From the NCBI RefSeq assembly GCF_003473485.1, contig NC_053046.1:43361832-43425831 (forward strand): a DNA stretch of 64,000 nucleotides, read 5' to 3'. This DNA is from Medicago truncatula (taxonomy: Eukaryota; Streptophyta; Magnoliopsida; Fabales; Fabaceae). Of this stretch, positions 24,856 to 64,000 are shown piece by piece. The translations under genes and the position numbers were made by a program. Within the stretch, counting starts at the first letter, position 1. Each line of letters starts with the position of its first letter. Under the pieces are notes generated by a model. It was not told where the DNA came from. It did not search any database and was given only the letters and a program-made list of their open reading frames with translations.

Positions 24856-27800
24856 ATGGAGAAAGTAGACACTGAAATCATCCCTATGCCTTTCCCTCCT
24901 TACCGTCGATCTCACTTCCGCAGCCATACTTACACCACCCTTCTCCGTATTCTTTCCCACCTTTCTTCTTCCACCGTTCCTGGTACATTATTCTTATTCT
25001 TATTCTTATTGTTGTTGCTTCTACTTTTACCTTTTGTTTTACTACTGCCAAAATCATTGATTTTACTTTAGTTGAATGTAGAGTGATTTACATAAAAGTG
25101 AATTGAACAATAAATTTCAGTGTAAAAACCACATTTAGACTCAAAAGCTACAAAACCTAGCTTCAGGTTAGAATCAACTCTGGAGGCTAAATTAATGGTT
25201 CTCGAGGTCAACTAGGCATGTTAAAATCAATCAATTTTACACCTCAAGAGTCGATTTTGGTTGTTCCAAACATAGGCTAAAGCGCAGCAGAATTTGAACA
25301 AACTATTTAGTACAAAATGTGTTCAAAGCGGCGGCTATAGTGGCGTTATAACAATATTGCATAGCGGAATTATATCAATCCGCTATCCGTGATTGAGTGA
25401 TCGAGTCAGCACAGTTAGTTATAGGAACATGGTTTTGTTTCGCTCTGTAGTACCAGTATTCTGCTTGCACAGTTAGTTACAAGGTTAAGACATTTTTTGG
25501 CTAGCTGTGCTATATTACTCTATTAAGGGCTGTGGTTGCAGTGTCAAGAGACATAAAAAATCCTTCATGTCTCACAGCTAGGGTTGCGGTAGCGATTGCC
25601 CCTTTTCGTTTTTGATATTATTGATTTGAATGATTGTTCAGTTCAGTTTCTTTTGTTAATTGAAAACACAAGGGTGTTCCTTTTCTTCAATATATTTAAA
25701 GTGCACTTTTCCCCCTTAACTTTAAAAAGTTGCGATTTTGGCCCCCTATGTACAAAATCTACAATTTTGGTCCCCTAAGATTTAGCCCCTTTGCATCTTT
25801 GGTCCTTTTGGTCAATTTTGACCAAGTCAACGCTGATTTGGCATGCCACGTGTGTAATTAGCCATTTTTTAAAAATAAAAATGTAACATGTTAAATTGTT
25901 GAATTAAAAAAATTTTAAAAAAAGGAAGAAGGAGAGGCACGTTCATCTTCCAAAAAATTAAAACTTCATATCCAATATGCAATTACTTATTTTGCTTACA
26001 ATGTTTGTATTGTTCAATGGTGACATGCCACTGTCAAGTCGCAACGCAACTATGCACAACTGTATATCCAATATCCAATTACTTATGGATCGAAGTAACC
26101 AAGAGAAAACGATGATGGCTCACAACCATGTTTCATCGCCTTCTGTTTCGTAGGTATGAACAGCCAGAGTTATTGAAGCTTAAACTGTCTGATTCAATGT
26201 TGCTCTGATACCCTTCACGTTATATTTTGTCCCTAGGTGTAATAAGACCTGCAATGTTGGAAAGTAACTGAATTAGATAAAACCATATATATCCACTTTA
26301 TAGAAGTTTTTTAAGTTGTGGTGATTTAGAAAGGGGTAAAAACATTTGAGGTGATTTTTCATTTGAGGTGATCTGCAATGTAAAATGAAATAATTTAGAA
26401 AGGGGGAAAAACATTTGAGGTGATTTTCTGAATCTTTTTATGAAGGTTGTTATTGTTGTTGACGAGATTGTTGTTGTTGTTGTTGAAAAGATTCATGGTG
26501 TATTTGATGGAGTTTCTGGGTTTTGGTTGAGAAGAAGATGAAGTTGTTAAGAAAATGATGAGAAGATGAAGTTTTAATTTTTTGGAAGATGAAGATTTTC
26601 TGGATTTTCACGTGCCTCTCCTTCTTCCTTTCCTTTTTCATTTTTTTAATTCAACAATTTAACATATTACATTTTTATTTTTAAAAAATGGTTAATTACA
26701 CATGTGGCATGCCAAATCAGCGTTGACTTGGTCAAAATTGACCAAAAGGACCAAAGATGCAAATGGGCTAAATCTTAGGGGACTAAAAATGTAGTTTTTG
26801 TACATAGAGGGCCAAATTCACAACTTTTTAAAAGTTAGGGGGGGGAAAGTGCACTTTAGCCTATATTTTTTTTAGATATAAAAAAACTTCCTGTCACAAC
26901 AAAAATATAAATAATTTGATGTCACAGATAAGGTTAAGGTTGCGGTTGCAGACATTTTTAACTTGCCTGTTTTTTTTTTTACATATTTGTTGATTGAAAA
27001 ACAGAAGGGTGTTCTTTTTCTTCATTTTTTTAAAAACTTTTTTGTGAAGTTTCCTGTTGGATTTTGAATTAAAGCTTATTTGTTTGGTTGTTGTTATGGA
27101 TCAAATTGATGATAGGTCATATTTCAATGCTGCACTTTTCATATTTTTTTGCTACACTCTTTGTTAAAAAATTTAATAATTTTTCTTCCTCTTTCAAGAT
27201 AATGGCAATGTTGGAATGGGGCAAGAAAACCAGGAAAAGGAGCCTGAGAACTCCGAGTTAAAAGTTGGTGCTGATGTCAAGGATCCCAAGGGTCCAATAC
27301 CCTTGAAGGAAATACATGATGTTCATGAGACCATTGAAAGTGTTGGAGACAAGGGTAAGGATTTGAGTGCCAATGCTATGGTCCTAGATGATGCAGCAGC
27401 ATTTCTTATGGGAGGAGATGAACAATCTACACAAACAGATGGTTTTCATTTGGAACAAACGATAATGGACGAGTTGGAGCTTGTTGTAAAAGGGGATGAA
27501 GATCCTGTTTGTGATGATAGTTTAATCCCCTTGAACTGCGAGAAACAGAATAGCGGTAGTGAAGTTGATTTGATGGATTACCGAGTAGAACATGTTGAAC
27601 ATCTGCGTTCTGGTACAAATACGTCTGAAAGTGTAAGTGAGGTGCAGTCGCAAGTACAAGGGGAGCTTAATCAACTTGACGTGGAAGGCTTTAATGTGTC
27701 CGAGTCAACAAAGGGACAAGCTTCCGATTCCGTAATTAGTAGTACATCAAGCATACAGATTGAAAGACAACAGAAGGAAACAGAATTGGTAACGCTGGTT

Positions 27801-30664
27801 TGTCCTCTAGCGGGATCTATTCCTACTATTCAAGAGGGTGAATTTGAGAAGGAAGAACAGTATGGTCATAAGGTTGATGAAGCAACTCATAGTTCTTTAG
27901 ATCTTGATACAAATACTGAAGCATTGAATATGACAGAAGATGGTGGATTGCTAGACTCTACAATTTTGAAAGATAAATGTGAAACACAAAATGAAGAGAA
28001 ATCAGAGAAGTTAATTTGTGTGAAAAATACAACAAATTCTTCCGATATTCTGATCGACGAAGGAGATCTAGAAGAGGGAGAAATTTCTGGAGAAATTTCA
28101 ATGGATGGAAACACATTTGACGTGTCTTCTGCAGATGCTATAGTTTCAGAACAGATGAAATTGGATGAGATTGAGAAACCCGGGAGTTCATTTGAAAACA
28201 TGACTTCTCCTTTCAATACGGGTATCTCCTTTCAAGGCTTTCCATCTAATCTCTTTACGGTAAATGCAATTCAAGATACACCAACATTAACCAAAAATCA
28301 AGTCTTGCGCAAAGGATTCATGGAAGAAACCTCTCACGGGAACTCGTCTGTAGTACAGGTATGGATTTCACCGAGTATTTTAGCACAATATTCAATGATA
28401 ACCTACCTTTATTTTAGTTACCTTTACATTGTGTTCTGTACTCACCACCAATGATGAATGGAAGATATTCGACGATGATCCTTCCTTTTGTAATTTTTAA
28501 TATATCGCCCTATTTGAGTTTGTTTGGGAAAATTTATTTAAGGTCAGAATAATGTTCTGAAGTACTTTATCATCAACCATATCCTTCGGTATCCTATTTA
28601 GAGTTCCATAATATAGACAACTATTCAACAATGTTAAAACTTGGTGATGTTTACTTTTCTTTGATTAATTATTGTTCATATGCAGCAGATTGTTGATGCC
28701 AGCAGAAATGAACAAAGTGGTCCTGATCCTAAGAAGAAGAAAAACAAAAAGGTGTTCTTCTGATATTGTTGGCTTGTTATATTTTCTTTCTTAATGTTGT
28801 ATTGAATTTCTAAACTTGTGATATGGGTTTTGAGGCTAGCTGGTTTTTCCTCCTCTGAAGTCACCCCAACATCAGTTGGTACATTATCTACTATTTATGA
28901 AGAAGAGAATTGCTAGCAAAACACTCTCTAACACTCTTTTCAACACACGTTCTTCCATTTATCAAAATTAATATATGTTCTACTGTGTTTATGTAGGACC
29001 CACATCATTTAACTGGCAACTGTATTAACTGGCAACTGCCAATCAACTCCGAGTGTAACTGTCTAACTGTATTAACTGGCAACTGCCAATCATCTAGGAG
29101 TTGCTGACTGACGCTTGTCAGTCAGCTAGAGGCAGTTAGTTTATGTCTATAAATAGACTTTTCAACCTAATGTAATTAAGACTAAGAAATCAATCTAACA
29201 GAATTCACAAAAACATATTTTATTCACAAAAACAGTTTAATAATTTTAATGCAAGTGATGCTTATATTTTTGGCGAACTATTGATCATTTGCAGCAGATG
29301 GTTGATGCCAGTGGGAGCAAACGTGGTCCTGGTTCTCAGGAGAAGAAAACTAGAAAGAGGGTATTATTCTGATTTTATTAATATATCTTCCTTTATGTTG
29401 TATTAATGCCTTTAACTTGTAAATATATTTTGAAGCCAATTAATTTCACATCCTTTGAGGTCATTTCAACATTGGTTTATTAATTATCTGCTAGTTACGA
29501 GAATAATCCTTAGTTCTATGTTTTTGTATTACTGATGATTTCTTTATTTGATAAAATTTGCTCTGCAGAAGAAGTATCGAAAGAACAAAGCAGAAAAGAA
29601 CAGAGAGCCAGGTGGTAAAAGGCCAAAGTTTATTCCAGAACAAAAACCAAAACCTAAACAATGTCGCCATTATATGAAAGGAAGATGCCATGAGGTTATA
29701 TTAAACTCAGTTATATTAAACCTCGACTTATTCTTCACTTTATATCATGACACCTTTATGCTTGTTTTAAATTTCTTTTATTATTCTTCATTATACTGTT
29801 ACATTAGACGGGATAGGATTAGAAATGACGACGTTACAGAGAGAATTGGGGTAGCACTTAGTAGAAAAGATGGTGGAAACTAGACTTAGGTGGTTTGGGC
29901 ATGTAGAGAGAAGACATGTAGATTCTGTAGTAAGGAGAGTAGATCACATGGAGAGTAGTCAAATCACTAGGGGGAGAGAAAGACCTAGAAAAACTATTAG
30001 ACAAACTATTTAGAAAGATCTAGATATTAATGAGTTGGACCTAGAGTAGATCACATGGAGAGTAGTCAAATCACTAGGGGGAGAGAAAGACCTAGAAAAA
30101 CTATTAGACAAACTATTTAGAAAGATCTAGATATTAATGAGTTGGATAGAAATATGGTATTAAGAGCATTATGGCGTCGTTTGATCCATGTTTAGTGGGA
30201 TAAGGCTTGGTTCTTGTTGTATTGTACCATTACACAATACATACGAGAATTTGTTATTCTAGTATTGATGCTTCATTTAACTTTTTGATTCTTAAGAAGG
30301 TAAAAATTATATATTTGTTAATTGGAACATAGAACTTGCATGAATATTCATTTATATATGGGATTAATGAGCCATGTCTTTAAATAACAAGATAAATTTC
30401 ATGTTGATATTTTACTTGTCATGTTAGAAGATTTCCGTATTCATGACTTGAATTACAATCTTGTAAACGTTCTTCTTTTTCAGTTATATAATTTGACATT
30501 TGAATTTATCTGAACCCTGGAGAGTTTATTGTGGTTTTGTGGAAACTGAAAGTTACCTCCAGGGCCGAACCAACGCATATAAGGCCTTTTTATCAAGTAA
30601 ATTTTTAAAAAAAAAATTAAGGTTGTGATTCCGTTGCTTGCCTTACCCTTGGGCCGACCCTGGT

Positions 30665-36716: not shown

Positions 36717-37226
36717 CTAGGAGGTACCCATCTTGAAACCTTTGCATGCTTTGGACTGTTGCTTCTTGCTTTTCTTCTTTCTTGGGACCACAAGTTGAAA
36801 TGGTTGGCCAGTATCTCTTGCTAAATCAACAGTTTCATTTTTCTGACCCATGTTAGCCCAAGAATCACTCAAAAAATCTATAGTTTGCTGGGCCACAGAA
36901 GGGACGAGTCCTAAAACTTGCATATCGTGAGTAACATTGGCACTAAAATTAGACAAGTTAGGGTCGGTCCCAACTATGGAATCATTCATTCCTAATTCAT
37001 GCTCAAAGTCATTCAGAGTATGATCATTACCGTAATCCATATCAGTCACCGCATCACACCAAGGGTCAGTGATACGCATATCAGCAAAAGAATTGCTATG
37101 TTGATTCCCATTATGAATCTCAACCTGAGCTAAGGTGTCTTCCACTTGCACATGAAGAGTTTCAACAGTAGAAGATGCCTCTTCCACTAACTTAATAGCA
37201 TCTCCTACGTTCATTGTAGTTGTCAT
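36717..37226 (-). CDS. 169-aa open frame, possibly LINE-derived or retroposed
   Basis: An uninterrupted frame begins MTTTMNVGDAIKLVEEA and ends in PFQLVVPRKKKSKKQQ followed by KACKGFKMGTS. The N-terminal two-thirds is acidic, and the C-terminus is a Lys-rich patch. The phrase SDSWANM...PFQLVV with KKKSKK resembles the linker between the ORF1-like and endonuclease regions of plant L1-type LINEs, but no reverse transcriptase or endonuclease follows. A T-rich leader-like 3' segment and a run of 10 A (read on the minus strand, 36529-36520) lie about 190 bp beyond the stop, which suggests a poly(A) tail and retroposition. I found no clear target-site duplication. Function is unknown; it may be a domesticated or simply undecayed LINE fragment. 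Confidence 0.5.
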   Translation of the reverse strand: MTTTMNVGDAIKLVEEASSTVETLHVQVEDTLAQVEIHNGNQHSNSFADMRITDPWCDAVTDMDYGNDHTLNDFEHELGMNDSIVGTDPNLSNFSANVTHDMQVLGLVPSVAQQTIDFLSDSWANMGQKNETVDLARDTGQPFQLVVPRKKKSKKQQSKACKGFKMGTS

Positions 37227-37800
37227 CTCTCTAAACCTTATAATATCAAAATGACTAGAGCTAGTAGTAAATCAAAATAAATACTACATATTTTATGGAA
37301 AAATAGTTATTAATTTCATAAAAATCCAGTCATGTAATGAAATTGAAAATCTACTTTTATCTTTGTGTTCTTTTTAATAAATAAACTTTTATCTTAATTA
37401 GTTCCGTTGATTTTAACACATGTTTAGAAATGCAATGAAATCATCTCCTAGATATCTAGACTTGAGGGCGTTAAATTTCCTTTGTAAATACTACCCCCTA
37501 TTGTCCTTGTTGCAATGTTCATCGGAGAAGAATCAATATGTATCCGCTCTATACGAATCAGATGTATTAATTATCACTAAATTTAATAGTGAATATTTTT
37601 TTATTGAAAAATGCTAACTTATGCTCTAAGGACACAAGATAAAGATCTAAAAATAAAATTAAGAAATAAATGTTGCATTGAAAATATAAGGTTTTGAGTT
37701 TTTAAAATTATGAATGCACAATTTACAAGATTAAATTTCTACATATATTTCTTATCATGTGCACTTAAGGCACAAGTTAGCAAAATGCTAGTTAACTCTA

Positions 37801-44697: not shown

Positions 44698-47600
44698 ATG
44701 TCTACAAACTTAAATAATCTGTCACTTTTTCACAAAACCTTTTCCCTCACCTTGTTTCTTTTCTCAGTAAATTTTCTTTTCTTTCCATGTTGTAACTCTC
44801 TTGATGAACAAGGCCAAGCTCTTATAGCATGGAAGGAGAGTTTAAACACTACTTCAGATGTATTAGCATCTTGGAACCTTTCAAACCAAACACCATGTAA
44901 TTGGTTTGGTGTGAAGTGCAATTTACAAGGAGAGGTAGAAGAGATAAACTTGAAATCATTGAACTTGCAAGGCTCATCATTGCCTTCAAATTTTCAACCT
45001 CTCAAGTCCTTAAAGGTTCTTGTCCTCTCGTCAACCAACATAACAGGAAGGGTTCCAAAAGAATTTGGAGACTATCAAGAGCTCATTTTCATTGATCTCA
45101 GTGAAAATTATCTCTTTGGAGAAATCCCAGATGAAATTTGCAGGCTAAGCAAACTTCAAACTTTAGCTCTTCATACAAACTCTCTTGAAGGAAATATTCC
45201 ATTCAACATAGGAAATTTACCAAGTCTTGTGAACTTGACACTCTATGACAATAAACTCAGCGGCGAAATTCCGAAGAGTATTGGCTTATTAAGTAAGCTT
45301 CAAGTATTCAGAGCTGGAGGCAATAAAAACTTCAAGGGTGAGCTGCCATCGGAGATCGGAAGCTGCACCAACTTGGTCATGTTAGGTCTTGCAGAAACCG
45401 GCATTTCCGGTAGTATTCCTTCTTCAATAGGGATGCTAAAAAAATTACAGACCATAGCCATTTACACAACTCAGTTGTCAGGCTCTATACCAGAAGAGAT
45501 AGGGAATTGCAGTGAGTTGCAGAATCTGTATTTGTATCAGAACTCAATTTCTGGTTCAATTCCACCTCAAATTGGTGAGCTCAGAAAGCTTCAGAGTCTA
45601 CTTTTATGGCAAAACAATATGGTAGGAGCAATTCCAGAAGAGCTTGGAAACTGCAGAGAGCTCAGTGAGATAGATTTGTCAGAAAATCTTCTCACAGGTA
45701 GCATACCAATCAGTTTTGGAAAGCTATCAAATCTGCAAGGACTTCAACTGAGTGTTAATCAGTTGTCAGGTATTATACCACCTGAAATTTCAAACTGCAG
45801 TTCTTTGATTCAGCTGGAAGTTGACAACAATGCTATTACTGGTGAGATTCCTTCTGTTATTGGCAACTTGAGAAACTTGACTCTCTTCTTTGCATGGAAG
45901 AACAAGCTAACAGGAAAAATCCCAAATAGTCTTTCAGAGTGTCAAAATCTTCAGGCACTTGATCTTTCATACAACAACCTAACTGGTTCGATACCAAAAC
46001 AACTATTTGTGTTGAGGAATCTAACTCAGCTTATGCTTATTTCCAATGATTTGGAAGGATTAATACCACCTGATATAGGTAACTGCACAAGTCTCTACAG
46101 ATTGAGGTTAAATCAGAATAGATTGGTTGGTACCATTCCATCTGAAATTGCCAACTTGAAGAACTTGAATTTTTTGGACTTGCACTACAATCATCTTGTA
46201 GGGGAGATTCCATCTCAGTTCTCTGGTCTTAGCAAACTTGGAGTGCTTGATCTCTCCCACAACAAGCTCTCAGGGAATTTAGATGCTATTTCTAACCTTC
46301 ATAATCTTGTTTCTTTAAATGTTTCCTTCAATGAATTCTCTGGTGAATTGCCTAACTCACCATTCTTTAGGAAACTCCCTTTCAGTGATCTCACTGGAAA
46401 TAAAGGTCTTCACATTCCTGATGGTGTTGCAACTCCAGCTAACAGAACAAGAGCCAAATGTCGTGTTAGATTAGATATGGAGATTATATTGCTCATTCTC
46501 TTGAGCATCAGTGCAGTACTAATACTTCTCACAATCTATGTTCTGGTTCGTGCTCATGTTGCTGACGAAGCATTCATGAGAAATAACAATTCGGTGACAA
46601 CTTTGTATGAGAAGTTTGGATTCTTCTCTATTGATAACATTGTCAAGAATTTCAAAGCATCTAATATGATTGACACCACAAATTCTGGAGTTTTGTACAA
46701 GGTAACAATTCCAAAAGGCCATATACTTACAGTTAAAAAGATGTGGCCAGAATCTAGAGCTTCTAGTTCTGAAATTCAAATGTTAAGTTCAATCAAACAT
46801 AAGAATATCATCAACCTTCTTGCTTGGGGATCCTATAAGAATATGATGCTGCAGTTTTATGACTACTTCCCTAGTCTGAGCTCATTGCTTCATGGTTCAG
46901 AAAAGGGAAAGTTAGAATGGGATACTAGGTATGAAGTCATCTTAGGCCTAGCTCAAGCACTTGCATATTTGCACCATGATTGTGTGCCTTCCATATTTCA
47001 TGGAGATGTCAAAGCAACAAATGTGTTATTAGGTCCTGGTTTTCATCCTTACCTTGCTTACTATGGCCGGACAAAAATTGCAAGTGAAAAGGGTGAAAAT
47101 ACTGATGCCAATCCAGTTCAAAGACCTCCCTACTCCGAGAGTTCTTATGGATACATAGATCTTGGTAATTTATCTATCTATCTATCTATCTATCTACAGG
47201 TCTATCTTTATGATCTCATTTCCCGCCTAAAACATGTTTTAGTATCTATGTTTTTAGGCAGGTTTCACTAGTACCAGTTTTTCCACTATATTTAAGTTAG
47301 TTTGAGTAGTAATTTTCAATACTTTACATAAACCATTGCACAGTACTTATTTTTATTGTTTTGGCATGTGTACAGAGCTTGACTCGTTGCAGAAGATCAA
47401 TGAGAAAACTGACGTATACAGTTTCGGTGTGGTCCTACTTGAGGTGCTGACAGGAAGGCACCCATTAGATCCAACTCTGCCAGGAGGTATACACTTGGTT
47501 CAATGGGTTAAGAATCACTTGGCTAGCAAAGGAGACCCATCTGGAATTCTTGACTCAAATCTTAGAGGGACTAAACCTACTGTTATGCATGAAATACTAC

Positions 47601-47704
47601 AGACTCTAGCTGTGTCATTACTATGTGTCAGTACAAAAGCTTATGACCGTCCAACAATGAAGGACACTGTTGCAATGCTCAACCAATTTCGATACTTTGC
47701 TTAG
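44698..47704 (+). CDS. LRR receptor-like kinase, subfamily XI (RGI/RGFR-like), predicted pseudokinase (931 aa)
   Basis: Exons are 44698-47164 and 47376-47704, joined at codon 823. A signal peptide (about 1-35), an LRR N-terminal cap with CNWFGVKC, about 20 LRRs of the type LxxLxLxxNxLxGxIPxxIG, a transmembrane helix (about 594-616) and a kinase fold follow. The RAGG word at 205-208 fits the RxGG signature of root growth factor receptors. Family members are usually near 1,090 residues; here several C-terminal LRRs seem missing between HLVGEIP and SQFSGLSKLG. The kinase keeps the ATP lysine (K680), HGD (768-770, usual in this clade), K772 and N775. However, the glycine loop is reduced (TNSGVLYKV), DFG is YYG (788-790) and APE is DLE (821-823). 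Loss of the DFG aspartate predicts no catalysis. The second exon is well conserved (TDVYSFGVVLLEVLTGRHPL). The frame is open throughout, so it is likely expressed as a receptor-like pseudokinase, or is an early pseudogene. Confidence 0.93.
47172..47196. repeat. (TCTA)n microsatellite next to the receptor gene splice donor
   Basis: About six TCTA units begin seven bases after the exon 1 donor (47165) in the 211-bp intron, so length changes could alter the spacing of splicing signals. Confidence 0.9.
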
Positions 47705-48197
47705 AATGTATTAAAGGGAGTTTCAGTAGTGCATGCTAAGAATATAGTTTCACATGCATCTTCTAACTGTTCCTTTAATTTCTCAGATGGCTTAATCTGT
47801 TGAATAGAGCCATGCAAGATTGCAAGTTGTAGAGAACCCATGATTGTGAATGATGTAATGGAGTGCCAGTTAGAGCAGGCAAGAATTACTAGAGTAATTA
47901 AATGTAATCTTAGATATAAAATGCAAATTTCAATTATCCATAATAAAATGCATTCTAGAACCTTTAACTCAAGTTTTTAGTCTAATTGGCTTCTCATCAA
48001 TGTGACTGACATAAAAGATCTCCTTGGCCACAAATCAATGTGACTGTTTTAAGTTTTATTTGCGGCAAACAATCTAAAATTTAAACAAAAGGTCACGTTT
48101 GGATAAACCGATGCTGTCAATTGCGGATCACCATAAGTAACAGTTTATTCAAATTCTGCTTATCTGCTAGGCAGCAATGCTATAGCGCAACTATAGC
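47705..48197. other. 3' UTR of receptor gene and intergenic DNA
   Basis: The first 240 bases probably hold the 3' UTR; aataaaatgca occurs at about 47941. No further gene is seen. Confidence 0.45.
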
Positions 48198-50062: not shown

Positions 50063-50503
50063 TCAATCAACATTCTGCATAATATCTTCAGCACCAAACT
50101 TAGTACCCTTCTCCTTATCAGCGGCAGCACGTCCCTTCGCCTTCCTCTCAAGCAACGACTTCCTATCCTTATCCAATCTCAGCTTAGTAACAACAACTTT
50201 GGAAGGATCAACACCAACATTAACAGTAGAACCATTAACTTTCTCACGAGTAATACGTTCAATATGAATAACCCATTTTTTGCGATAAACTTGAACGATT
50301 TTACCTTCACGGCCTTTGAATGTTCCTCTAACGACTTGAACTTCATCGTCTTTGCGAACTGGTATGGAACGGACGTTGTATTTGGATCGGAGATCGGTGG
50401 AGAGTGGTGCGCTCATTATCACACGGCGGAGACTTGATGGGGCCGTGAAATGCGCCTTTCGACTCTTTCGGCGGCTGCTTGAAACTCTTGGATTGAACTT
50501 CAT
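50063..50503 (-). CDS. RPL26: 60S ribosomal protein L26 (uL24), 146 aa, intronless
   Basis: Cytosolic large-subunit protein near the peptide exit tunnel. The single exon reads [20 protein letters not shown], then [20 protein letters not shown], the KOW motif [20 protein letters not shown], and [18 protein letters not shown]. It is 146 residues, the usual plant length. The upstream in-frame ATG at 50515 would add four residues (MKKK) that family members lack, so 50503 is preferred. Plant RPL26 genes are commonly intronless. The promoter carries a telo box and site II elements (separate entry). Confidence 0.97.
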
Positions 50504-50549
50504 CTTCTTCTTCACCTCTCTCTCTCACACACTCTCTCTGAATGAAGAA

Positions 50550-60393: not shown

Positions 60394-61350
60394 TCAATCC
60401 ATTCTCCAAGCATACAGAAAGTGAAGAAAACTTTTGGTGGATGAATTCTCATCTACTAAGTCATAGCTACCACTATCCTCATTTCTTTCTGTGCATTCTC
60501 TGCTATTAGAATCATCTGTTTCCAAAATTCCTGGCTTGAAAATAAACACGGCAGGGCCTGAACCAAGGTCATTGAACAACCAATCATGCACATCCCAAAA
60601 GATTTGCACAGGTAAATTATTCACCATTACTATTTCATTTCCTCTAAATTTCCAATTCAGGTTCATTATTCTACTTGCCAACATTCCATCTATGCTAATC
60701 CACATTTCTGGATCATCAGGTCCAGAAAGGGAAGTCTCGATAACGACATCATGTTCTGGTTTACCCTCCTCTAGCATGGCTCTTGTACAAAACAACTTCT
60801 TCCCTTGCACATTCTCTTTCTTGCATAACAATGTAGCTTCTTCTGAGGATGGTTTTGATTTGGTTCGCACATAAGCATCATTCGTTAAATCTCCAAGTAA
60901 CAAAAGTACCTCTTTCTTGTAAACCAAGGCAACATAATAGCCTGAGCAAGGCTGTGGATTTGTGGAGAATTTTGCGTGTCGAAAATCCCAATAGACATCT
61001 ACTCTTGCACCTTCTATTTCAAAGGATTTGAGACCTTTTTTTCCCCAAGATTGTCCGGATGCTAAATCAATCTTGCAGGTAAATTTGTTTTCTTCAGATG
61101 GTTCTTCGACGCTCATGGAAAGAGAATGTTCTATGAGGTTTTTGCACCATGTCACTGCAACATTGCGAAATGAATCTCCTAATTTTGTTTGATAGACATA
61201 GATAACAGAACTATGAGGGGTTAAATTTTGTATGGCCTTATGCTTTGAAGATTTTTTCCATGGTGGCGGCTCAGGAATGCTCATTGGCACAACTTCGACA
61301 AGAGAATTAGCCGTTGGCATTGAGCATCGGCTATATAACTCGGATAACAA
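60394..61350 (-). CDS. DUF868 family protein (318 aa)
   Basis: Plant-specific family of unknown biochemical function; a single uninterrupted exon encodes it. Landmarks in order: SVIYVYQTKLGDSFRNVAVT with WCKNLIEHSL, CKIDLASGQSWGKKGLKSFE, ARVDVYWDFRHAKFSTNPQP with SGYYVALVYKKEVLLLLGD, KKLFCTRAMLEEGKPEHDVV, and the strongly conserved LNWKFRGNEIVMVNNLPVQI with FWDVHDWLF and AVFIFKPG. The C-terminal 40 residues are acidic and Ser-rich, then end FLHFLYAWRMD. No signal peptide or membrane segment is obvious. The first Met is taken as start; a second Met ten residues on is an alternative. A TATA-like atatataa lies about 80 bp upstream. Confidence 0.92.
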   Translation of the reverse strand: MLSELYSRCSMPTANSLVEVVPMSIPEPPPWKKSSKHKAIQNLTPHSSVIYVYQTKLGDSFRNVAVTWCKNLIEHSLSMSVEEPSEENKFTCKIDLASGQSWGKKGLKSFEIEGARVDVYWDFRHAKFSTNPQPCSGYYVALVYKKEVLLLLGDLTNDAYVRTKSKPSSEEATLLCKKENVQGKKLFCTRAMLEEGKPEHDVVIETSLSGPDDPEMWISIDGMLASRIMNLNWKFRGNEIVMVNNLPVQIFWDVHDWLFNDLGSGPAVFIFKPGILETDDSNSRECTERNEDSGSYDLVDENSSTKSFLHFLYAWRMD

Positions 61351-62686
61351 CTCAAGATTGAGCTTGCAAATGTTTATGATTTTCTTATAGGATTGAAAGT
61401 TGTTACTCTTTGTCCTCCAATGAAATTATTATATAAAAGAAACTTATAATAGGTAAAACCATAGAAATTTCCTACAAATAGAACAACAATAACGATGAAC
61501 AATCATCATCTTTCACCTCTTGTAGATTCAATAGCAACGTAAAGAAACAATATGCAACATAATAGCCGTAACATTCTGAAATATGTGAAAACTAAAAATC
61601 GTTATGAGGAATAAAATATATGTTGAGGATGTTAATGAGGTGCCAACAATATTAGCTTCTTCTTTTTATTGTTGTTATCTATTAATAGGTTATTGTTCTT
61701 AAGTTGAAAATAAAAGCAAGTTGCAATCTACTAATTATAGAAATGTCAAGTTTAGAAGAAACCTAACAAGCTTTATATTTTTATAATTAGGCTTGCTGGT
61801 TTTTGTTATTGGTATTCACAAATTAGAATATAATGATAATTCTATTTTAATTTGGTTTACATGTTTATTTATTTTCAAATATTGTTTTTGGGTGGTTTTT
61901 TTTTTTTGGCAGAAGTCTCATTCATGGTAGTTGTTGATCCATCTTTACGTCATGACTGATAAGCATTATTATGCTTTAAAATAAGTCCCTTAACTCAACT
62001 ATCATAGCAATAACCAAAGGGGGTTTGATAATTAATTACTTATTCAAGAAATGTTTTGTTGGTAGGTATGTCAATAATAAAGAAGTTTCATATCCGATGA
62101 AAATAGATTAGTCCAGTAACATGTTTCATGTCCAGACCAGTTGTGTGACTGCTCTTAATCGATTGTGATGATCCCTCAAGATTCAGACACCCCTTATGAG
62201 CTAACATTTTTGTCATATGAATATGAATTTATAAATAAGTTGTTTATACAATCAAATCAAAAGAAGAAATGGACTAAACCTTGAATAGGCACAGCATAAA
62301 CTGTTTCTACAAGTTATCTTAGAGAGATTATAAAAATAATCTAAAAATGACTTGTAAATTTGTTTAGCATTCATGCATGTTTTTGTCATGAAATAAGTCC
62401 AGTTAAACTATATAATGGGTTATGGGTAGTTGAGTTCATAGAATGCAAAAATATACCTTAACATAAAAATTTGTCCTGTAGAACAAAACCTCATGATTTT
62501 AGGAGTATAATACATACCATTATAAATTACAAAGTAGCATGACAAAAATAGATAAAGATCACACGACAAACTGATCTTAAGGCCTCAAAGTCTATATAAA
62601 AATCATGTGAGGTGCACATCAATAACAATCACTATACACAAATACATTATATAAATTAAAAAATATATATTAACCTGAAATCTTCA
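61351..62686. other. Intergenic DNA, no gene seen
   Basis: This stretch holds the DUF868 promoter and the 3' UTR of the KIN-14 gene. It contains no recognisable frame, SINE or MITE ends. Confidence 0.5.
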
Positions 62687-64000
62687 TTATAATACAAAAA
62701 ACTTTCCTCGTGGTGTCGACCGGCTTCTTTTAAATTCATGCATAGATGTATTGGTTCCTTCCTTAAGATTGCGACCTTGAACATTTAAAAGTTTGTTTTC
62801 AACTTTACTAGCAGACAATGGTTCAGCTTCTTGCATAATTCTTCTGCATGTGACCAAAATAAATGCTTATTTAAGGTTTCTAAAGATAAAATTAAGAGTA
62901 GAAAATTTCAGTGGTTCTTTTAGCCATACCTTGATTCATGGTTCTGAGAATTCCTTGAGATGTTGTGACGCATCTTTTTAACACTTAATACACCATTCAC
63001 TGCAGACTCCATAAAAGTAAAGTCATTTTCTGGCTCAGAATAATCACACTTTTGAGGCGCCTCCACGATTTCACCGGTAATATCCATGTCAGGAATCAAT
63101 TTAGGTATTAAATCGGTCTTTTGAATCCTAAAGGGCGATCGTTGATGATGTTTTGCCTTGACCTTATTGTCAGCTTTGCTATTCCTAACACCACTTTGTC
63201 TTACTGCCGCAAATGGTTGTTTGACCTGTTGCTCTTCGTGTTCTCGATGAACTTTCCTGAAGCTTACTTTCTGGGCGTTAAAGAGAGGTTCATAAACAAA
63301 ATCGTGTTTCACTGGCTCTTGTGGATGTGGTGTCATTGTCATTGTGACAATAGATTTATTTACTGGCACTGTTCTAGCTGTAAATGGATTCTTCGAAATT
63401 GGTTGGTTTTCTAGATTGTCGATTTTGGTCTTGCTTTTAATGACAGAACCTCTATCAGTAGATATTGATCTCCTAATTGGAGGTGATGGTGACCTGCCCC
63501 TCCCTGTGCTCACTGACTTTTCTTCAGACAGAAGAGACATTTTTGGTATGGAGTCCTTGTCCATAAATGTTGAGGGAAATCTTGGCCTTCTTTGTTTGCC
63601 CGAAGAATAATTTTTAGCCTGAAAATATAATTTCAATTTAGAAAATGCAAAGTATGTACTTCAGTATGCTATATAGAACCAACACTTCAAAGCGACGGTG
63701 TGTCTGGTATCTGACATGACATGTTTCACTGTCCGACGTGTGAAGTTACATTTGATTACTTTAATTTTCTTAAACTATTACCAGTGTCTACATGCAAGTG
63801 TCGTGTCTGGTGTGTGTTTGTGTCCGTGTCCGTGTCCGTGTCCGTGTCAGTATTTCATAGTCGGTATGACATATTAGCCAAGTATGAACCTAAAAAAAGA
63901 ATCTTTTCTTATATTTGAGACCGGAGGGAGTATTACTTTAAACATAAATGTATTATAAATGGTTGTGTGTGCATTCAATAACCTCAGAGCTTCTATCATC
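62687..64000 (-). CDS. KIN-14 family kinesin, C-terminal tail exons (partial)
   Basis: Three exons of a minus-strand gene that continues beyond the window: 64000-63983 (DDRSSE, partial), 63618-62930 and 62843-62687. Phases and GT-AG sites agree. The protein reads AKNYSSGKQRRPRFPSTFMD, SLLSEEKSVSTGRGRSPSPP with IRRSISTDRGSVIKSK, then SEPENDFTFMESAVNGVLSV, and finishes FKRSRSTPRGKFFVL. This basic, Ser/Pro-rich tail with the terminal RSRSTPRG motif is that of plant KIN-14 kinesins with an N-terminal calponin-homology domain and central motor. KIN-14 members move to microtubule minus ends and act in organelle or nuclear positioning and spindle work. The motor and CH domain are outside the window, so the exact subfamily member is not determined. 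Confidence 0.88.
63820..63848. repeat. (GTGTCC)n minisatellite-like run
   Basis: Four perfect gtgtcc units and one partial, in the intron between KIN-14 exons. It is part of a dispersed repeat with related words near 22890 and 49680. Confidence 0.85.
63917..63936. repeat. One end of a Stowaway-like MITE
   Basis: tatttgagaccggagggagt is the inverse of the common plant Stowaway start (ctccctccggtctcaaata). The partner end was not found nearby. Confidence 0.4.

Follow-up and report, generated by a model that had tools for sequence, protein, structure and literature searches.

An RGF-receptor-type gene of Medicago truncatula with retained peptide motifs, a five-repeat deletion in its ectodomain and a degenerate kinase domain

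Plant receptor pseudokinases are established, which makes a dead receptor kinase alone unsurprising, and excerpts of PMC7158045 put the share of eukaryotic kinomes said to be inactive at 10-20%. Concerning receptors of RGF peptides, the portion consulted of PMC7555646 names Medtr5g045910, Medtr7g059285, Medtr3g060880, Medtr4g105370 and Medtr1g097580 as homologues of RGI1-5; the word "pseudokinase" is absent from the main text of that paper. The peptide MtRGF3 was reported to repress nodulation, its Medicago receptor being unidentified as of 2023 according to passages of PMC10448048. The gene described here lies in a stretch of 64,000 nucleotides that was analysed as a whole (the window) and that covers 43.36-43.43 Mb on contig C5 of Medicago truncatula.

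This LRR-XI receptor gene reads on the plus strand, as do all of its features given below, and its product of 931 aa is encoded by two exons, 44698-47164 and 47376-47704. Exon 1, delimited by its open frame, a GT donor and Pfam matches (LRRNT_2, LRR and Pkinase), comprises a signal peptide recognized by eye, the LRR ectodomain, a transmembrane helix (46477-46551, residues 594-618, a hydrophobic stretch of the translation also identified by eye) and the kinase up to the APE-equivalent site. Exon 2, placed by its AG acceptor, frame continuity and identity to the chromosome 3 paralog (70.6% over 109 aa), holds the remaining kinase C-lobe and ends at a premature TAG. The intron is of the GT-AG type, with the donor after 47164 and the acceptor before 47376, at a site common to all six modelled paralogs. 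Unspliced read-through of this intron was considered and rejected: the frame closes after 35 codons and the kinase is broken. Six bases into the intron stands a perfect (TATC)6.5 microsatellite (47171-47196), which could vary in length among accessions.

A whole-genome protein search returned one close paralog, at C3:27391005-27393842, in two overlapping matches, one covering residues 2-528 of the exon 1 product at 74% identity and the other residues 402-820 at 57%. Five more distant members, on C4, C7, C5, C3 and C1, showed identities of 47-56% (best-scored candidates). Two-exon models of these six paralogs, built from the same genome, formed the comparison set; their introns are GT-AG in five cases, with a GC donor in the C1 member, and DFG and APE are present in all six. 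The best PDB match was 5hyx, RGFR1/RGI3 (At4g26540), with an E value of 4.6e-241, and a FastTree phylogeny of the seven Medicago sequences placed the window gene as sister to the chromosome 3 RGI homologue with a support of 1.000. Matched by chromosome, the five genes of PMC7555646 would correspond to the paralogs on C5 (20.1 Mb), C7, C3, C4 and C1, Medtr3g060880 being probably the sister copy of the window gene; none of the five numbers seems to fit chromosome 5 near 43.4 Mb, where numbering should stand at about Medtr5g097. Main-text passages checked from papers citing gene numbers of its region do not mention the window gene.

Residues of the kinase domain named in a preliminary description of this DNA (YYG, DLE, TNSGVLYKV from residue 661, K680, HGD and N775) were all found at the places assigned to them. 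DFG is replaced by YYG (47059-47067, residues 788-790) and APE by DLE (47158-47164, residues 821-823, a codon series split by the intron, with its final two bases, 47376-47377, in exon 2), and the glycine loop is degenerate (46672-46689, residues 659-664), two of its three glycines being gone through G659D and G661T. An intact kinase of the RGI/RGFR clade, as defined by these three elements, is consequently not encoded here. The beta-3 lysine K680 (46735-46737), HGD (768-770) together with N775 (46999-47022), E692 and the DVYSFG segment are retained. HGD was considered as a lesion and rejected, since the intact chromosome 3 copy has HGD too, which makes it an inherited feature.

A motif scan of 48 loci matched its pattern in 27 and failed to match it in 21; the matches comprise 16 distinct HxD-to-DFG stretches, of which 15 have DFG, and YYG occurs solely in the window gene. 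Of 86 kinase residues that do not vary among the six same-genome paralogs, the window gene keeps 63, against 87-98% for the paralogs in leave-one-out comparisons, and the 23 lost positions are spread over both lobes, beyond the catalytic sites. Judged by these counts, its kinase lesions go beyond ordinary divergence among paralogs. Pfam Pkinase scored 43.0 bits on exon 1, above the cut-off; exon 2 alone gave 19.4 bits for Pkinase (below the cut-off) and 26.9 bits for PK_Tyr_Ser-Thr (above). As far as primary sequence can tell, the predicted product is a receptor-like pseudokinase, that is, a kinase fold with catalytic residues lost. An atypical kinase that is active despite YYG would agree with the conservation of K680, the HGD aspartate and N775, and the plant pseudokinase ILK1 was reported active in the abstract of PMC9403797. 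With APE, the aspartate of DFG and two glycines of the loop missing together, however, residual activity is the least probable of the readings weighed here.

The ectodomain keeps both peptide motifs. RxGG, here RAGG (45310-45321, residues 205-208), acts in RGF peptide recognition according to excerpts of PMC8708909 and PMC11534595, and RxR is represented by RLR (46099-46107, residues 468-470), a motif that in RGFR1 touches the C-terminal end of the peptide (excerpts of PMC6749341 and PMC8708909). Up to the deletion described hereafter, 130 of the 136 ectodomain positions invariant in the six paralogs are conserved; leave-one-out controls ranged from 87 to 97%. The window gene lacks five LRRs that each of the six paralogs has, a loss of 119 aa relative to the chromosome 3 copy and 121 aa relative to the other five, and its LRR array is thus not of full length. 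The deletion junction, NHLV/GEIPSQ (46198-46212, residue 501/502), is in frame and sits just past RxR, both motifs lying upstream of it; two overlapping query stretches were needed by phmmer for covering RGFR1 5hyx. In the intact copy, the two repeats that border the deleted segment share the sequence found around the junction, and an exchange between such similar repeats would account for the survival of frame and LRR register. In a single-sequence structure model of residues 1-591, whose mean pLDDT of 62.7 is too weak for arguing geometry, LRR strands and helices run through the junction (10-residue blocks of 74, 60 and 76).

Since an assembly can collapse LRR repeats, an artefact of the assembly or of the gene model, with collapsed LRRs and a wrong base at the stop, was also considered. 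However, the junction is a clean hybrid with the LRRs in register, and many independent kinase substitutions would be untouched by a collapse; such an artefact is judged very improbable. The preliminary classification as an RGF-receptor-type pseudokinase holds for the RGI/RGFR-type LRR-XI sequence (5hyx, RxGG and RxR) and for the lost catalytic motifs, but it had overlooked the five-LRR deletion. In HAESA, a related receptor, the contacts of SERK1 involve LRRs 15-21 together with the C-terminal cap (PMC4848090, consulted in part). The window receptor would, on this analogy, have lost the greater part of its co-receptor face but kept the final LRRs and the cap, through which some co-receptor contact might still be possible.

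The receptor pair arose by segmental (collinear) duplication. Minus-strand exons at 43424521-43429724, which start at window position 62690, extend past the window end and probably belong to one multi-exon gene, and a second minus-strand exon stretch at 43431103-43431444 both have partners beyond the chromosome 3 copy, in the same order and orientation. Two genes situated between the receptor and this block, at 60394-61425 (DUF868) and at 50063-50524 (which we take to be ribosomal L26-like), had nothing near the chromosome 3 locus among the matches listed. For the receptor pair, dS was 0.61 in the part of the ectodomain preceding the deletion, 0.41 in the 92 codons behind it and 0.56 in the kinase; the neighbour pairs gave 0.69 (first pair, 1010 codons) and 1.18 (second pair, only 105 codons). 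Because a receptor-pair dS of about 0.6 compares with the legume Ks peaks of 0.3-0.6 reported in the portion consulted of PMC6499179, the duplication is likely to be the papilionoid whole-genome duplication.

Other segments of the region have relatives elsewhere. Approximately positions 250-1440 of the locus C3:27388000-27397000, upstream of the chromosome 3 receptor, match C5:43437134-43438635, downstream of the window gene, which indicates that part of the collinear block was rearranged. Window positions 27180-28454 (plus strand) hold an open frame of 424 aa with no Pfam match; at another place on chromosome 3 (C3:24418047-24419288) lies a copy of it, 90% identical, that contains one stop; this duplication is probably younger than the receptor pair. 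An ORF at window positions 36717-37271 (minus strand) has at least 86 matches genome-wide, many with stops, and no Pfam match, and this dispersed repeat is probably a transposon fragment.

Evolutionary rates of the window gene and the intact chromosome 3 copy were compared by relative-rate tests. With C4 as outgroup, unique changes numbered 30 v 25 in the ectodomain (p 0.59) and 44 v 14 in the kinase (p 0.0001), the window gene being given first, and the kinase/ectodomain comparison gave a Fisher value of 0.019. Restricted to sites with agreement among five outgroups, counts were 6 v 11 in the ectodomain and 21 v 3 in the kinase (Fisher 0.0008), and the direction was unchanged with each of the five outgroups (Fisher 0.009-0.036). 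The control pair C7/C5b showed no asymmetry in four tests (Fisher 0.36-1.0), and a second one, C3/C4, gave Fisher values of 0.05-0.43 over three tests (0.05 in one).

Free-branch codon models returned omega values for the window copy of 0.30 in the ectodomain, 2.9 in the ectodomain behind the deletion and 4.6 in the kinase, which did not differ from 1 (p 0.18, 0.84 and 0.62, respectively) in models of little power, probably because the outgroups were saturated at synonymous sites. In the shared-clock models, both copies were assumed to have an equal neutral length of 0.344 substitutions per site each, an assumption on which every omega and stop-count claim for the window copy depends, and the 92 codons behind the deletion were excluded. 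Omega was then 0.25 in the ectodomain and 0.41 in the kinase of the window gene, against 0.16 and 0.16 in the intact copy, and an omega of 1 was rejected for both domains of the former (p 2e-21 and 1.4e-9, respectively). Between copies, kinase omega differed (p 2.3e-4) and the ectodomain difference was marginal (p 0.07); within the window gene, kinase and ectodomain differed from each other (p 0.007). When both copies were constrained to one kinase-to-ectodomain ratio of omega, the shared-clock model was not rejected (p 0.17). The check on dN/dS with ectodomain and kinase taken apart, as proposed in the preliminary description, therefore had a divided outcome: neutrality was rejected with the shared clock, but without it the model lacked power.

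Read under the clock, these values indicate that selection released the kinase while holding the peptide-binding part, and this pattern is more in keeping with a peptide receptor that does not signal than with an ordinary old pseudogene. The same kinase omega of 0.41, below 1 under the clock, would also agree with a signalling pseudokinase, in which the dead kinase assists active receptors, RGI or others, as their scaffold or allosteric partner; receptor pseudokinases in such roles are known, e.g. BIR2, CRN and GHR1 (excerpts of PMC7158045), and the retained K680, E692, HGD, N775 and DVYSFG agree with a role of this kind. Against it, the lost kinase invariants (23 of 86) reach both lobes and go beyond catalytic sites, the tail is cut, and the five missing LRRs belong to the side that touches SERK1 in HAESA, so that a scaffold role appears improbable.

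The window gene had been described as free of any stop or frameshift. Its frame is indeed open for 931 codons, and no frameshift appeared in the alignment of its translation to the intact chromosome 3 copy, but the in-frame TAG at 47702-47704 is premature when judged against that paralog, since a tail is encoded behind it. The remnant of this C-terminal tail (47705-47803) continues in the same frame past the stop and holds ASSNCSFNFSDG, where the paralog has GSSTCSYNFSDG; the frame behind the TAG reads ...KNIVSHASSNCSFNFSDG, like the paralog end KNVLLHGSSTCSYNFSDG, and a blastn match to the paralog covers 61 nt at 83.6%. No 3' intron skipping the stop was seen on inspection by eye. The premature stop takes away only the tail, and the good preservation of the sequence behind it suggests that it is young.

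With the tail removed in this way, a gene that has died only recently stays a close competitor. According to this alternative, a redundant duplicate whose kinase was relaxed earlier has recently lost its function, and its frame is still open since the loss is recent. The in-frame stop with a well-preserved tail behind it, the loss of five LRRs and the slightly raised ectodomain omega (0.25 v 0.16, p 0.07) would all be in line with such a history, as would the fact that a neutral phase taking no more than some 7% of the branch often enough leaves no stop by chance. That limit is a hand calculation from three expected stops, set against the absence of stops. The decay must, however, be recent, since whole-gene neutrality predicts 2.1 stops for 5% of the branch and 4.2 for 10%, and the excess of change in the kinase over the ectodomain requires an earlier, kinase-specific phase. 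A single late neutral phase for both domains fitted worse (p 0.04), needed 17% of the branch and predicted 7.3 stops, whereas the first 926 codons contain none (P 7e-4). A dying duplicate is a serious candidate, one to which we give somewhat less than an even chance.

The explanation that we favor, tentatively and at just short of an even chance, is a retained peptide-binding receptor pseudokinase without normal signalling, which probably dampens the pathway. An RGI3/RGFR1-type ancestor would have been duplicated with survival of two copies, of which that on chromosome 3 still carries signalling-receptor motifs. In the window copy, selection for kinase activity would have been relaxed while the peptide-binding ectodomain was still preserved, and unequal exchange between LRR units would have excised five LRRs on the juxtamembrane side. 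The product may be a membrane receptor whose RxGG and RxR still let it bind sulfated RGF/GOLVEN peptides. Lacking, on this view, both phosphorylating activity and normal docking of SERK co-receptors, it would act as a sink or competitor lowering peptide signalling. The analysis itself established the exon structure, the kinase lesions, the LRR deletion, the early stop, the collinearity and the uneven divergence; translation, peptide binding, weakened SERK docking and dampening are what we infer for the gene. The five-LRR deletion makes a decoy more natural than a signalling scaffold; the readings are nevertheless not exclusive, as the scaffold is partly counted within the favored explanation and the genomic evidence is shared. 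The more specific idea of a hormone-sink receptor, with peptide surface kept, docking LRRs excised and kinase dead, forming in a legume a built-in dominant-negative brake on the peptide class to which MtRGF3 belongs, is, taken as a whole, unlikely.

If expressed, the window gene could represent a natural peptide-hormone decoy in the legume RGF/GOLVEN pathway, and the route from receptor to decoy would, if this is true, consist in the loss of whole LRR units together with kinase decay. If it is a dying copy, it would exemplify domain-by-domain decay after segmental duplication. A receptor-family list that treats all RxGG proteins as signalling receptors would misjudge this gene. An RGF-receptor duplicate with kept peptide motifs, excised LRRs of the presumed co-receptor side and a dead kinase was not found in the literature searched, which covered main texts of mostly openly accessible papers.

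Compared with described systems, the window gene resembles RGI3/RGFR1 (At4g26540) and RGI1-5 in its LRR-XI ectodomain with RxGG and RxR. Unlike RGI1-5, and as measured against the genome's own paralogs, it has lost five LRRs, DFG, APE and the glycine loop, and its tail is cut. With BIR2, CRN, GHR1, PAN1/PAN2 and DRIK1 (excerpts of PMC7158045) it shares the organization of a membrane receptor whose catalytic motifs are lost. It differs from these pseudokinases in belonging to the RGF-receptor clade and in stemming from a collinear duplication, and further in that it keeps its peptide motifs and has lost the LRRs of the presumed co-receptor side.
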